Source: Rhodobiaceae bacterium
GTDB lineage: Bacteria; Pseudomonadota; Alphaproteobacteria; Parvibaculales; Parvibaculaceae
DNA: 64,000 nt
Direction: 5' to 3'
Assembly (NCBI GenBank): GCA_003330885.1
Contig: CP030277.1
Coordinates: forward strand, 2,778,001 to 2,842,000
Shown here: in pieces, positions 21,269-29,945 of the stretch
How positions within the stretch are numbered: the stretch's first letter is position 1
Layout: each line of letters starts with the position of its first letter
Translations under genes and position numbers: made by a program
Notes under the pieces: generated by a model
What the model saw: the letters and a program-made list of their open reading frames with translations, nothing else
The model's database searches: none
Told to the model about the DNA's origin: nothing

Positions 21269-22204
21269 TTACGGCTTGGTCATTGCCACTGTCCTGAAAC
21301 CAATATGGTCGGTCCCAAGATCCACCTCCTGGGGATGGCGCGCCGCCGGCCGATAGCGGCGACAATAGTTGGGCGCACAGAGGTAAGAGCCGCCTTTCAT
21401 CAAACCAATTGACGCATCAGGTGCTGCATAAGGGTCCGCCGTCCACTCCCAGACATTTCCGATCATGTCATAGAGGCCATAGCCATTTGGCGGGTAGCAG
21501 CCAACCGGCGCACGGCCCACAAAGCCATCAGCCCCTTCATCGTTGAACGGGAAAAAGCCCTGCCAATTGTTGGCGAGATATTCCCCGTCGGGCTCACGCT
21601 CTTCGCCCCAGGCATATTTTGCGCCATCAAGGCCACCGCGCGCCGCATATTCCCACTGAACCTCTGTTGGCAGTGTGCGACCTTTCCATGCGGCGTAGGC
21701 AACAGCATCTTGGTAAGCAACTTGAACGACGGGGAAATGTTCACGTCCCACAATGGTGCTGCCTGCCCCCTCCGGCTGCCGCCAATTTGCTGTGTCGGCA
21801 TAAGACCACCGGCCTTCAGCATTGTTCTCAGGGACATGAAACACCGCGGCGCCGGGTGGCACGACACCGTCAATTCCCGCTTCCGCAACCGTCACATATC
21901 CGGTTGCGTCCACAAACTCAGCAAACTCCGCATTGGTGACTTCGGTCGCGTCAATCCAGAAGCTCTGAACTTCCTCACGGCGCACCGGTCCTTCTTCGGA
22001 ATAGATGCCGCCCGCACCCATATCGAAAGAACCCCCTTCGATGAAGACCATGCCCGAGGTCTCGGGCACGATTGCCTCAGGAGACAGACAGCTCACCCGT
22101 TGATCAACTGGACCTGAGGACGGCCAAGCCAGATAGGCGACCGCCCCCAGAAACAAAGCCCCCAGTGCAACCGCGCTAGTTTTGCCAATAGACGAATTCA
22201 TCAT
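21269..22204 (-). CDS. Formylglycine-generating enzyme, membrane-anchored (SUMF1/FGE family)
   Basis: Converts the active-site cysteine of a sulfatase to formylglycine. From the ATG at 22204 the protein is 311 residues, with an N-terminal hydrophobic anchor at about 9-27 (TSAVALGALFLGAVAYLAW) and then the FGE-sulfatase domain (MVFIEGGSFDMG; LPTEVQWEYAARGG; YDMIGNVWEWTADPY). The C-terminal GGSYLCAPNYCRRYRPAARH holds Cys276 and Cys281 at the spacing of the two catalytic cysteines of human and actinobacterial FGE, so it looks catalytically competent, unlike cysteine-less relatives such as PvdO. The start overlaps the sulfatase 3' end by 29 bases, so the pair is translationally linked. A longer frame start at 22303 lies deep inside the sulfatase gene and is unlikely. 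Confidence 0.88.
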   Translation of the reverse strand: MMNSSIGKTSAVALGALFLGAVAYLAWPSSGPVDQRVSCLSPEAIVPETSGMVFIEGGSFDMGAGGIYSEEGPVRREEVQSFWIDATEVTNAEFAEFVDATGYVTVAEAGIDGVVPPGAAVFHVPENNAEGRWSYADTANWRQPEGAGSTIVGREHFPVVQVAYQDAVAYAAWKGRTLPTEVQWEYAARGGLDGAKYAWGEEREPDGEYLANNWQGFFPFNDEGADGFVGRAPVGCYPPNGYGLYDMIGNVWEWTADPYAAPDASIGLMKGGSYLCAPNYCRRYRPAARHPQEVDLGTDHIGFRTVAMTKP

Positions 22205-23846
22205 CTTCTTTAAGCGGCTCTGCCAGGGTTTTGTCAACATAGACCGGCATCGCATTCGAAGATGGCCAGATTGGCTCGGCCTGATCCGCCTTGTGGGCAT
22301 CAAGTAACGCGGTCAGTTCAGCAAGCTTGGCAGGTTCTGCATCCAACAGGTTTGTCGTTTCGCTTGGATCTTCTGCCAAGTGGAAAAGCCACTGCTTACC
22401 CTGAAGGCCTGAGACCTGCAGCTTCCAACCATCCTTCAAAACGGATCTATATTCCCCGTCTGACCAGAAGAGCACGTCATGAGGCTTACCTTCAGCCTCT
22501 CCGACAACGAAGGGAACAAAGTCAACGCCATCCATCACACGGTCCGTTGGCATTGCACCGCCCGCCGCACCCGCCGCTGTCGCAAAAAGATCGATATGTG
22601 CAACGGGCTCATCATAGACGGTGCCCGGCGCAATGCGTTCAGGCCAGCGGGCAAAGAAGGGAACATGTGTACCGCCTTCAAACAGAGTGAGCTTCCAGCC
22701 GCGATAAGGCGTGTTGAGATCATCAAGCCCCACATACCCGGCCCCACCATTATCGCTTGTGAAAATCACCAATGTGTTCTCGTCCAGACCATTGTCTTTC
22801 AACGCCTGCATCACCCGGCCAACTGACCGATCCACCGCGCGCGTCATCGCGGTGTAAACACGCAAACGATGATCTTCAATATGAGAGAGTGCATCATAGT
22901 CAGACCTCAACGCCTGCAACGGCGTGTGAATGCCCCAATGTGCGAGATAGAGAAAGAAAGGTTGGTTGCGATTGTTCTCAATCACTTTCACCGCTTCATC
23001 GGTGTAATAGTCGGTGATATAGCCACGCGGTTCGAAACGCTCACTGTTATTGAAGGTCGACGCATATTGCATATTTGGCCAAAGGAACCGGTCAATCGGA
23101 TCAAAGTCCTGATAGGAATTCACCACATCCGGGTGATCTTCCGGCAGGTAAAGTCCGCTCGCCATGAGCAAACTGTCGTCAAACCCCTGCTCAATAGCGC
23201 TGCTGCCATTGGTGTGGCCAATATGCCATTTGCCGATATGCGCTGTGTAGTAGCCAGCTTCCTTCAGCATCTCAGCAACTGTGATTTCGCTTGTCGGCAT
23301 GCCAAGGTCCTGAAAGCTGGGCACCTCAACATCGGTGTCGAAAGCAAGAGTGGGGTGAGGTCTGTCAACTCCGAGATTCTCGGCGACGAACCCGACAAGG
23401 GACACCATGCCAGGAGGGGTCGGCGTAAACTCAAAGCCAAAACGGCTGGCATATCGACCCGTCATGATCATGGCGCGAGACGGCGCACACACGGCATTTC
23501 CAGCATAACCATTTGTAAACGCAACACCTTCGTGGGCCAGCGCATCAATGTTAGGCGTCTGCATATCAGAACCCGACGCACCACCACCGTAATAACTAAT
23601 GTCATTGAAGCCCATGTCATCTGTGACAATGAAGATAATGTTGGGAGGACGCTCTGATGGCGTGGCGGTGGCAACGTCCGGCCCCTTGGGCCAAACCACA
23701 TCCTGATTTGGACCGACAGGGTTCATGAAGCTTTGAAGAACACCGGGAGCTTGAAGGACGATCTCCACCCGGTAAACCCAGCCAACAGCGATCAGCACAA
23801 GTAGCGCGACACCAACACCGCCAAAAACCTTCTTCAACATTTTCAC
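22176..23846 (-). CDS. Formylglycine-dependent sulfatase, membrane-anchored
   Basis: Type I sulfatase of 556 residues hydrolysing a sulfate ester. The N-terminal hydrophobic segment (VALLVLIAVGWVYRV, about 13-27) is an uncleaved anchor or signal. Metal-binding residues are in IIFIVTDDMGFNDISYYGG. The modification motif CAPSR is at 120-124, followed by AMIMTGRYASRFG as expected for the C-x-P-x-R signature. The HIGKWHIGH segment and the SDNGG segment (IFTSDNGGAGYVGL) complete the active site. The product should work outside the cytoplasm. It sits in an operon with its maturation enzyme downstream and an unknown membrane protein and GST upstream. Confidence 0.95.
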   Translation of the reverse strand: MKMLKKVFGGVGVALLVLIAVGWVYRVEIVLQAPGVLQSFMNPVGPNQDVVWPKGPDVATATPSERPPNIIFIVTDDMGFNDISYYGGGASGSDMQTPNIDALAHEGVAFTNGYAGNAVCAPSRAMIMTGRYASRFGFEFTPTPPGMVSLVGFVAENLGVDRPHPTLAFDTDVEVPSFQDLGMPTSEITVAEMLKEAGYYTAHIGKWHIGHTNGSSAIEQGFDDSLLMASGLYLPEDHPDVVNSYQDFDPIDRFLWPNMQYASTFNNSERFEPRGYITDYYTDEAVKVIENNRNQPFFLYLAHWGIHTPLQALRSDYDALSHIEDHRLRVYTAMTRAVDRSVGRVMQALKDNGLDENTLVIFTSDNGGAGYVGLDDLNTPYRGWKLTLFEGGTHVPFFARWPERIAPGTVYDEPVAHIDLFATAAGAAGGAMPTDRVMDGVDFVPFVVGEAEGKPHDVLFWSDGEYRSVLKDGWKLQVSGLQGKQWLFHLAEDPSETTNLLDAEPAKLAELTALLDAHKADQAEPIWPSSNAMPVYVDKTLAEPLKEDDEFVYWQN

Positions 23847-23865: not shown

Positions 23866-24486
23866 TTAGCGGCGAACCACTGCGTTCAACACACCTGCAA
23901 CACTCAACAACACGAAAAACAAAAGCACCCTCGGATCGGTCAGGAACAGTCTGTCTTCAATTGGAAACGCAATCGTCTTTTCAAGGGACGCTGTTTTGAA
24001 ATCATGTCGTCCTGAAAAGGCAGGATTGATCGTGATCTCCATCATGTCGCGCCGGGAGCGATATCGCATTGCCGCACCTCTGGTCCACACACGGGCATTC
24101 TCTATACCCACAACGTCGAGCGCATCGGATACCGCAGAGCCAACCATCACGGGATGCGACGCACGGCTAAGAAGTGCCGGCCACATATATTCCATGTATT
24201 TGGCCATCACATCATCAGAGCTGTCACTCGGCTCGACGCCTTCAACCGGGTCCGGCGTGTCTTTCATATGAATGGCATTGATCATCAGAAAGTCGTTGCC
24301 GGTGTCAGACTCCAGAAATGCCCTTACCCGAGCGAGCACCTCTGCGTCACCGCCACGTTCTTCAAACGCGGACATGTAGCGATCAACTTCTTCCTGAGTC
24401 AGCGGACCACCAAAACTTGTGTACCAGAAGAAGAACACCGCATAGAGAAGGGCTGGAACGAGCCAAACCATCAAACGAAGCGACAT
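23866..24486 (-). CDS. Unknown two-helix membrane protein in the sulfatase operon
   Basis: Not recognised. The 206-residue product has a hydrophobic helix at each end (about 5-24, LMVWLVPALLYAVFFFWYTS, and 183-202, VLLFFVLLSVAGVLNAV). About 155 residues lie between them, rich in charged residues, and probably project outside the membrane. The central domain includes an AMRYRSRRDMMEITINPAF strand pattern. It sits 20 bases upstream of the sulfatase and 12 bases downstream of the GST gene, so it is clearly part of the operon. A membrane partner of the sulfatase is one reading, but nothing in the sequence proves it. Confidence 0.75.
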   Translation of the reverse strand: MSLRLMVWLVPALLYAVFFFWYTSFGGPLTQEEVDRYMSAFEERGGDAEVLARVRAFLESDTGNDFLMINAIHMKDTPDPVEGVEPSDSSDDVMAKYMEYMWPALLSRASHPVMVGSAVSDALDVVGIENARVWTRGAAMRYRSRRDMMEITINPAFSGRHDFKTASLEKTIAFPIEDRLFLTDPRVLLFFVLLSVAGVLNAVVRR

Positions 24487-24497
24487 GGATTATTCCT

Positions 24498-25526
24498 TTA
24501 AGCGAAGAGCTTCTCGCAACCGGTTCCGGCTAGAACCTCGTCAACAAGCTTGCGGTCGGCATCAGCCAATGCTGCATGTTCATCCCGAAGCCATTGAAGG
24601 CACTTGCCCTGATAAGCAAATGGCTTCTGCACCCACCGCGCCCCATCGATTTCAGTCTCGACTGTGTCAGCGCCTTCCATCAGCGCCTTGGCATTCGCGA
24701 GAAGTGCTGGAACATAATAAGATCCGACTTCTTTGAAGAGATTGATCAACGTTTGCGGGATCGCATCGCGTTTGGTCCAGGCGCTTTCATCTGCATCAAG
24801 CCCACTCAGGTCATCGACCATATCTACCCACGCATAGACGGCCGGGGCTTTGTCGAGGGTGAGTTGCATCGGTGTCGGATCAAATGTCGCAAGCTGCGTC
24901 AACTGCCCATACATGCCAAAGTCACTGCTTGCCGGGCGTGCCCCAAACAGGAAGGAGGACTTCTCAAAGTGCGAACGCATCACACCGAGATAGCGTTCAT
25001 AGCTCGCCTCAATGACTGGGGCTGTTTCATTGCTGGACCCAACAACATGCAGCCGTGAAATCTGACGGTCTGCAAAAATTCCGCCGAGCTTAAGCGCTTC
25101 TTCTTCTGCCTGTGGCTTCAATGTCCAACGTGGCAGGATAGCCGATGCCTTATCTATATCTGCCTGGAAGTGCCAACGATAATGGAACATGGGCTTGGTG
25201 AGCCATTCGTCGGCATAGTCTTCCAGCAGATAGTCAAGAAACGCGATCGCAGGGTCGGTCGGAATAACCGACCGTCCTTCGAACTCGTTTTCGAAGCGTC
25301 GGATCAGCGGCGTGCTATCGACAACCGCTTCCATATCGCCAGACGCATTCGGCAAAAAAAAGGTAGGCAGAAGCATCACCTTTGGCGCGGGCATACCCTC
25401 AGGCAAACCATCCCGGTTCATGTGCAGTCTGTAAGGCAGATGACGATACCGCATCACAGCCAGCATCTTTCGTGTGTAGGGAGACCCTGGCGCTCCCATC
25501 AAAGTGAGCGGTGTCGAAACTGTCAT
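24498..25526 (-). CDS. Glutathione S-transferase family protein
   Basis: 342 residues, longer than the usual 200-230 of simple GSTs. The N-terminus LMGAPGSPYTRKMLAVMRYR is a thioredoxin-fold GST start with the S-P-Y-T residues near the expected active site. The all-helical C-terminal domain contains SSFLFGARPASSDFGMYGQL, the conserved GST motif that has an aspartate at a helix N-cap. The extra length is between and after these parts. It is the first gene of the operon running through the membrane protein, sulfatase and FGE. What it conjugates or isomerises is unknown. Confidence 0.82.
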   Translation of the reverse strand: MTVSTPLTLMGAPGSPYTRKMLAVMRYRHLPYRLHMNRDGLPEGMPAPKVMLLPTFFLPNASGDMEAVVDSTPLIRRFENEFEGRSVIPTDPAIAFLDYLLEDYADEWLTKPMFHYRWHFQADIDKASAILPRWTLKPQAEEEALKLGGIFADRQISRLHVVGSSNETAPVIEASYERYLGVMRSHFEKSSFLFGARPASSDFGMYGQLTQLATFDPTPMQLTLDKAPAVYAWVDMVDDLSGLDADESAWTKRDAIPQTLINLFKEVGSYYVPALLANAKALMEGADTVETEIDGARWVQKPFAYQGKCLQWLRDEHAALADADRKLVDEVLAGTGCEKLFA

Positions 25527-28340: not shown

Positions 28341-28562
28341 CGTTTGGTTCCTCCATTCAGCGGTGCGCCGTGCGCCACTCACTGACCCCAATAAACTCGC
28401 TAAAGACAAATTGCGAATTACACATACTAACCACGTAAAACGCGTGGTGCAGCGATCAAATTTCACTATCCCCTGATCGTTTTCGAACGCTGGTCAACCA
28501 GCAACGCTGGACTAATGACATTAAGCATGCCAAAAATTACGCGGTATGCAGGGAGACGCTCA

Positions 28563-29945
28563 ATGTTGGAACCATCAAAAAAAGACAATCCAAACCCTTC
28601 GCTGACGGTTGATCCGCCTAAACCGGTTCGCCTTATCATGTCTTTCATGATGAACCGAATGATGGATCCCGCCCGTTTGCAGAAACAATGGGATGCCGCG
28701 GAAGCTGAGCGACAAGCGTTAGGCACTCCTCACAAAGTGGAATATTTCCACCAACTTGATGATCCCTACAGCCATTTGAGTGCCCAAAAGCTGGCCGACC
28801 TGGGCGCAGCCTATGACATTGAGATCGTGCCCCACCTCATCAACGCCACCGGCGGGAAAAACCAGCCCTATCCCGAAGATCTAGCTGCTTATGCAAGACG
28901 AGACGCCGCCGCTGTCGGCCCCCACTACAAAGTTGGCTTCCCCGGCAATGCAGGCACGCTGCCAAACGAAGAGGATCGGCTGCTTGCAGCACGGATTTTG
29001 GCCGCAGCAAGCCCAGCTGAATTTGTCGACCGGGTCGCACCCGTCAGCGAGTTGCTATGGGTGGGAGATCACAACGCTTTGCAGGCACTGGCCGATGAGC
29101 TGGGAACAGTGAGCGAAAAGGAAGCGCTTAAACGTCTTGCTGAGGATTCTGAAATGCTCCAGAAGGAAGGCCACTATTCCGGCGGCACCTTCCGATATGC
29201 TGGTGAATGGTTCTGGGGCATTGACCGTCTCTACCATCTGGAAGCCCGCCTCAAAGAACGTGGCGCACACAAAGAGGGCGCTGCAGCAGTTGCCGACCGC
29301 CCACCACTTGATTGGGGCCCCACCAAAGACACCGGCACCATAACCCTCGAGGTTTTCCCCTCTCTGCGCTCTCCCTACACAGCTATCATCTTCGACAAAG
29401 CCTGCGAGCTTGCTGATGCAAGCGGCGTAAAGCTTGTTGTCCGCCCCGTACTGCCAATGGTCATGCGCGGCGTCCCAGGAACACAAACCAAAGGCCGCTA
29501 TATTTTCAGCGATACGAAACGAGAAGGCGAAGCGATAGGTGTTGGGTTTGGACCCGTTTATGACCCTATCGGGGAACCTGTCCGAAGGGCTTACTCCCTC
29601 TTTCCCTGGGCTGCGTCCCAAGGCAAAGGCAGAGAGCTGCTGAGCGCCTTCCTCGATGCCGCATTTAGACAAGCCGTCCGTATCGACACGGATCGTGGCA
29701 TGAAAAAGGTCGTAGAAGCGGCGGGCCTCTCCTGGAAAGAAGCAAAACCACAACTAGGGACCGACGATTGGAAAGCAGAGGTCACGGAAAACCAGCGCGT
29801 GATGGCCGAAGATATGCAGCTTTGGGGCGTGCCGAGTTTCAGGGTATCAGGGCCCGGGTCAGCGCCCGACTTCACCACCTGGGGCCAGGATCGTTTGTGG
29901 CTGGTTGCAGCAGAGATAAAAAAACGGATCGCTGACAAAAGCTAA
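28563..29945 (+). CDS. Tandem DsbA-like / 2-hydroxychromene-2-carboxylate isomerase-like protein
   Basis: About 460 residues containing two thioredoxin-like DsbA-family units. The first begins near KVEYFHQLDDPYSHLSAQKL and the second near ITLEVFPSLRSPYTAIIFDK. Each has the DPYS / SPYT turn that replaces the C-x-x-C in HCCA isomerases and kappa GSTs. The C-terminal unit keeps MQLWGVPSFRVSG, the cis-proline loop. No disulfide-active cysteine pair is seen. The start at 28563 has AGGGAGAC at good distance; the longer one at 28515 does not. It is divergent from the P450 gene. The fused pair is unusual and its reaction is unknown. Confidence 0.78.
   Translation: MLEPSKKDNPNPSLTVDPPKPVRLIMSFMMNRMMDPARLQKQWDAAEAERQALGTPHKVEYFHQLDDPYSHLSAQKLADLGAAYDIEIVPHLINATGGKNQPYPEDLAAYARRDAAAVGPHYKVGFPGNAGTLPNEEDRLLAARILAAASPAEFVDRVAPVSELLWVGDHNALQALADELGTVSEKEALKRLAEDSEMLQKEGHYSGGTFRYAGEWFWGIDRLYHLEARLKERGAHKEGAAAVADRPPLDWGPTKDTGTITLEVFPSLRSPYTAIIFDKACELADASGVKLVVRPVLPMVMRGVPGTQTKGRYIFSDTKREGEAIGVGFGPVYDPIGEPVRRAYSLFPWAASQGKGRELLSAFLDAAFRQAVRIDTDRGMKKVVEAAGLSWKEAKPQLGTDDWKAEVTENQRVMAEDMQLWGVPSFRVSGPGSAPDFTTWGQDRLWLVAAEIKKRIADKS

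Follow-up and report, generated by a model that had tools for sequence, protein, structure and literature searches.

Does the formylglycine-generating enzyme (FGE) encoded beside a membrane-anchored sulfatase in this genome act inside the cytoplasm or beyond the membrane? A biochemical paper on FGE places the prokaryotic enzyme in the reducing cytosol (PMC4505483). Searches of open-access literature yielded no account of a bacterial FGE that is periplasmic or anchored in the membrane. The locus lies within the window, the 64,000-nt stretch of DNA analyzed here, which originates from a complete 3.86 Mb genome. The minus-strand gene order is GST-like protein, two-helix membrane protein, sulfatase and FGE, with the following features.

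21269..22201, minus strand: predicted FGE catalytic protein, 310 aa from the conserved ATG; PF03781; catalytic Cys pair in GGSYLCAPNYC
22121..22180, minus strand: coding part of the FGE N-terminal transmembrane anchor, about residues 9-28 from ATG 22204
22088..22090, minus strand: Cys39 codon (numbering from ATG 22204), a clade-specific Cys directly N-terminal of the catalytic domain
21497..21499, minus strand: Cys236 codon (APVGCYPP), proposed disulfide partner of Cys39
21362..21379, minus strand: FGE codons 276-281, catalytic Cys276 to Cys281, equivalent to human C336/C341
22176..23840, minus strand: predicted S1-type sulfatase, 554 aa from ATG; N-terminal membrane anchor; FGly motif CAPSR
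22176..22204: overlap of the sulfatase 3' end and the FGE 5' end, 29 nt, or 26 nt from the second ATG
23866..24486, minus strand: two-helix membrane protein, the same neighbour within the genus only
24498..25526, minus strand: GST-like protein (GST_N_3), a constant neighbour within the genus, also next to the orphan sulfatase in the relative G010

The FGE reading frame ends at 21269 and starts at either ATG 22204 (311 amino acids) or ATG 22201 (310 amino acids), the latter being the more likely because one relative (L015) lacks the first methionine. The 29-base gene overlap described in the sequence-only reading is borne out from ATG 22204 and shortens to 26 nt from the conserved second ATG. 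A profile search matches residues 49-306 to PF03781 (E 6.7e-75), and the best PDB match in a sequence search is human FGE. The motif GGSYLCAPNYC conforms to the GGSxxC....C pattern and holds Cys276 and Cys281, five positions apart (numbering from ATG 22204); these are the two catalytic cysteines noted earlier, which, with the surrounding motif, are invariant across the aligned FGE set. The AlphaFold model of the 310-residue protein (pLDDT 90.6) exhibits the FGE fold, with human and bacterial FGEs as its best structural matches (1y1j, TM 0.88 by target length); aligned by structure, it is 43% identical to human FGE. These properties identify the protein as a canonical FGE, with a predicted copper- and O2-dependent conversion of cysteine to formylglycine (FGly). 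It resembles ER-resident human FGE (SUMF1) in catalytic domain, cysteine pair and motif, and shares fold, catalytic cysteines and presumed copper/O2 chemistry with the cytosolic FGEs of Streptomyces coelicolor and Thermomonospora curvata (2q17/6muj, 5nxl/6s07).

The adjacent protein matches PF00884 in a profile search (E 5e-56). Its frame ends at 22176, and its start is probably ATG 23840 rather than GTG 23846, which the earlier reading had used; the CAPSR motif placed there at residues 120-124 holds when counted from GTG and occupies residues 118-122 from ATG. The closest solved relatives by sequence are S1 carrageenan sulfatases (6prm, S1_19, S1_16; E 5e-78), from which the window protein is set apart by its N-terminal membrane anchor. 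It is a type I (S1) sulfatase by sequence relationship, and the mature protein is predicted to contain FGly. No polysaccharide-degradation genes were recognised among the flanking genes scanned around the pair, and an Rfam scan of the region gave no matches. Elsewhere in the window, positions 28515-29945 encode a 476-residue protein with a DSBA-like domain (PF01323) at its C-terminus.

When 40 genomes of the order were searched, most proved to carry a strong FGE homologue. Anchor retention in homologues, on which the sequence-only reading had made its membrane-anchored enzyme depend, was examined in 30 order loci: the N-terminal hydrophobic stretch and the Cys motif are kept in 29, and the remaining locus, L038, is truncated N-terminally. 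In 27 of the 30 (the window copy counted), the gene directly upstream encodes a sulfatase sharing 50-100% identity with that of the window, and the search for a conserved gene pair that had been proposed thus shows anchored FGE and anchored sulfatase kept together across the order. Given a correctly picked FGE start, the two genes always overlap or lie no more than 30 nt apart; the larger gaps in L019, L021, L031 and L042 arise from a downstream Met taken as the start.

The GST and two-helix genes, noted earlier as lying directly upstream, are indeed present there but adjoin the pair within the genus only, as judged from 12 neighbourhoods. Since this adjacency is so limited, the gene neighbourhoods mark the sulfatase and FGE pair as the conserved unit. 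Membership of the GST and two-helix protein in the unit was rejected, as outside the genus they are not adjacent in the loci checked; both probably lie outside it. The two-helix protein (23866-24486) has no Pfam match and yields a poor structure model (pLDDT 65.6); it is genus-specific and carries an invariant GAAMRYRSRRDM stretch. The relative G010 carries an ortholog of the window sulfatase (L169, G010:C21) with a GST directly upstream; no FGE was found in this nearly complete genome, which leaves that sulfatase copy an orphan.

Both proteins had been described as beginning with a hydrophobic anchor, and hydropathy supports this for each. In the FGE the helix spans approximately residues 9-28 by hydropathy and residues 6-25, ahead of the domain, in the AlphaFold model of the 310-residue form. 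A Lys precedes the helix and net negative charge follows it, an N-in, C-out arrangement. Pairwise comparisons among five sequences, that of the window and those of four close relatives, show 58 changes of anchor residues, none involving D, E, K, R, N, Q or H; dN/dS over the anchor is below 1, and the synonymous rate over the anchor is also below that of the domain. Among anchored or signal-bearing members of the wider clade described below, the N-side of the helix carries the higher charge in 30 of 36, the two sides are equal in 6 and none is reversed, and this positive-inside pattern favours placement of the catalytic domain outside the cytoplasm. The genus alignment contains no ATG between helix and FGE domain, apart from the Met in the GM(V/I) motif of the domain, and the intervening stretch has only scattered GTG/TTG codons. 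That the FGE starts solely at an internal codon beyond the helix is unsupported, given the anchor in 29 of 30 homologues and the linker lacking ATG.

To place the enzyme among its relatives, FGE homologues from named genomes, 289 alphaproteobacteria and 397 Pseudomonadota genomes were sorted by N-terminus, with export calls based on hydropathy thresholds and inspection of the N-termini. In a tree of 114 FGEs, exported and cytosolic enzymes part almost completely, and the same separation is seen in the tree of the phylum sample. Inside the exported clade, two enzymes, L107 and L146, carry a cytosolic label but are lipoproteins slightly below the hydropathy threshold, and the exported FGEs that fall outside it in the 114-FGE tree are L159 and human FGE. 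By this tree placement, the window FGE falls within a deep clade of exported bacterial enzymes bearing a transmembrane anchor, a lipobox or a signal peptide. Its sister is a cytosolic clade that includes the actinobacterial enzymes, which have no export signal. The earlier statement that aerobic bacterial FGEs are usually cytosolic requires qualification, as exported forms are not rare: 33 of the 80 FGE loci in the 397 Pseudomonadota genomes (approximately 40%) look exported, a count that takes in L235, L236 and L244, for which a wrong start had been chosen.

Clade mates in Sphingomonadales, Hyphomonadaceae and other groups are lipoproteins with clear lipoboxes, and such enzymes, judged by this signal, should not be cytoplasmic. 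Examples are L071, L081, L084, L092, L122, L148, L153 and L154, which lie near a sulfatase 48-57% identical to that of the window. The sulfatase near a lipobox FGE is sometimes on the opposite strand, and proximity has therefore outlasted rearrangement. A second, smaller lineage of anchored FGEs, without the Cys pair, was observed in the phylum sample (L278, L283, L290 and L291, three of them from one family).

The exported FGEs also differ from cytosolic ones in two cysteines, which in the window FGE are Cys39, immediately ahead of the domain, and Cys236, within APVGCYPP. Their co-occurrence in the first set gives a Fisher p of 4e-16, which is pooled across mostly one clade and for that reason is not independent evidence; phylogenetically independent pairs for export versus Cys236 are few. 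Within the exported clade, equivalents of both cysteines are present in 31 rows, neither in three (L230, L277, L296) and a single one in none, with the cysteines of L235, L236, L244 and the added order rows read directly from the sequences. The cytosolic FGE clade is without the pair. Such joint retention or loss suggests a Cys39-Cys236 disulfide and fits an oxidising compartment, and the genome encodes DsbB. The structural disulfides of human FGE use other cysteines, which are absent from the window FGE.

The location of the FGE is mirrored by that of neighbouring sulfatases. Counting sulfatases with a CxP(S/T/A/G/N)R motif and a visible N-terminus, 20 of 21 near exported FGEs are exported compared with 8 of 20 near cytosolic FGEs (Fisher p 2e-4, small samples), and the remaining one of the 21 (L298) has a Tat/lipobox-like start. 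The other set gave 12/12 exported sulfatases near exported FGEs versus 6/23 near cytosolic ones. Near cytosolic FGEs, seven sulfatases (L088, L108, L114, L118, L256, L269, L276) have twin-arginine-like starts, assigned by pattern and by eye in small samples; their N-termini are consistent with export after folding. The sulfatase neighbours of the cytosolic clade are mostly cytosolic or Tat-like. Lipoprotein-like sulfatases were also observed near exported FGEs (L072, L136).

Among the PF03781 proteins of the genome, the window FGE alone possesses the catalytic cysteines. The others are an EgtB-like protein and L002 (G000:C1:90382-91131), an exported FGE-fold protein without catalytic cysteines. 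Radical-SAM sulfatase maturases (anSME, AtsB) generate the same formylglycine product on sulfatases but are cytoplasmic enzymes unrelated to FGE. A search of the genome with TIGR03942 gave no anSME match, and anSME was accordingly rejected as the real maturase; the single SPASM match, L140, is of the radical-SAM/SPASM type but is not hit by TIGR03942.

The genome encodes eleven sulfatase-domain proteins, of which five, that of the window included, are exported CxP[ST]R sulfatases. Exported sulfatases of this type number 2-5 in FGE-bearing relatives versus none (G002) and one (G010) in complete FGE-less relatives, the single G010 protein being the orphan copy of the window sulfatase. Two further sulfatases, L011 (~1681201-1682286) and L043 (~615323-616336), both on G000:C1, carry CAPSR/CSPSR without an export signal and look cytosolic. 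No maturase is evident for them in a genome that has neither a cytosolic FGE nor an anSME match; either they stay unmodified, or they are served by another system, or some FGE acts inside the cell. Three PF00884 proteins with CMPxR (L012, L044, L045) also look cytosolic, and together with the relatives L171, L173-L175 and L211-L220 they form a set of cytosolic PF00884 proteins with CMPAR or CMPNR. CMPAR relatives occur in the FGE-less genomes G001 and G002, and CMPxR proteins therefore do not track the window FGE; they may use an unmodified Cys.

Taken together, the locus is considered likely to encode a two-gene unit of sulfatase and maturase that works outside the cytoplasm. The sulfatase would leave the cytoplasm unfolded through Sec and remain anchored in the inner membrane. 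The FGE, fixed there by an N-terminal helix of its own, would place its catalytic domain in the periplasm, be active there, probably be held by the Cys39-Cys236 disulfide, and presumably be loaded with copper in that compartment. At the outer face of the inner membrane it would oxidise the CAPSR cysteine to formylglycine before the sulfatase folds. Its substrate would be the window sulfatase and probably also the other exported CxP[ST]R sulfatases of the genome. The earlier suggestion of maturation on the outer side of the membrane gains support from the order-wide pair, the exported clade, and the topology and cysteine evidence, all of it drawn from sequence. The counter-evidence consists of the cytosolic L011 and L043 in a genome without cytosolic FGE, of G010, which has the sulfatase without the FGE, and of the reduced synonymous rate over the anchor.

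The two cytosolic CxPSR sulfatases, present in a genome with no other FGE, would be explained if the anchored FGE turned its catalytic domain to the cytoplasm and modified the sulfatase before or during export, an arrangement that agrees with the description of biochemically studied bacterial FGEs as cytosolic (PMC4505483). It is nevertheless very unlikely, as the positive-inside pattern predicts N-in, C-out with 0/36 reversed, the clade mates are lipoproteins rather than cytoplasmic proteins, the clade-specific Cys pair is retained or lost jointly, and the neighbouring sulfatases are exported. L011 and L043 would also be accounted for by dual localisation, in which most FGE is exported and a minor form, initiated at an internal codon such as a linker GTG or the ATG52 of the GMV motif, stays in the cytosol to act on the sulfatases there. 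ATG52 sits where several cytosolic FGEs start; however, the residue it encodes is conserved in the FGE fold whether the enzyme is anchored or cytosolic, which makes the codon uninformative, no clear Shine-Dalgarno sequence precedes it by eye, and the linker GTG positions are not all common to relatives. We regard dual localisation as improbable.

That the protein is exported but has no FGE activity appears extremely unlikely. Periplasmic FGE-fold proteins with other jobs are known: PvdO and PorK/GldK share fold and location with the window FGE and are not FGEs, and the genome itself has an FGE-fold protein without catalytic Cys (L002). Against this reading stand the invariant catalytic pair and motif in the aligned set, the level of identity to human FGE in the structural alignment, and the repeated pairing with a CxPSR sulfatase; PvdO and PorK/GldK also match the window FGE far more weakly than true FGEs do. 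The cytosolic bacterial FGE subgroup is characterized by the absence of an export signal, whereas that of the window FGE is conserved. This absence is a feature of the subgroup and no requirement for being an FGE, as human FGE is exported.

The extracytoplasmic unit favoured here is analogous to human FGE, a secretory-compartment enzyme that acts on exported sulfatases; human FGE relies on ER retention, in contrast to the transmembrane or lipid anchor of the window FGE clade. The new element is the compartment and the broad exported FGE lineage, the chemistry being already known. With moderate confidence, we propose that bacteria possess two ancient, compartment-specific formylglycine pathways, a cytosolic FGE for sulfatases that remain inside or depart already folded through Tat, and an exported, disulfide-stabilised FGE that acts in the periplasm on sulfatases exported by Sec. 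If this is true, the periplasmic exported lineage would be the equivalent of the eukaryotic ER system, and a widespread lineage of this kind would shift some of the activation of bacterial sulfatases into the oxidising periplasm. Such a lineage would give a natural setting in which to study copper FGE away from the cell interior, and perhaps a means of attaching aldehyde tags to proteins that are secreted or periplasmic. Prediction of sulfatase competence from genomes would then require that the location of the FGE, as well as its presence, match the sulfatase.
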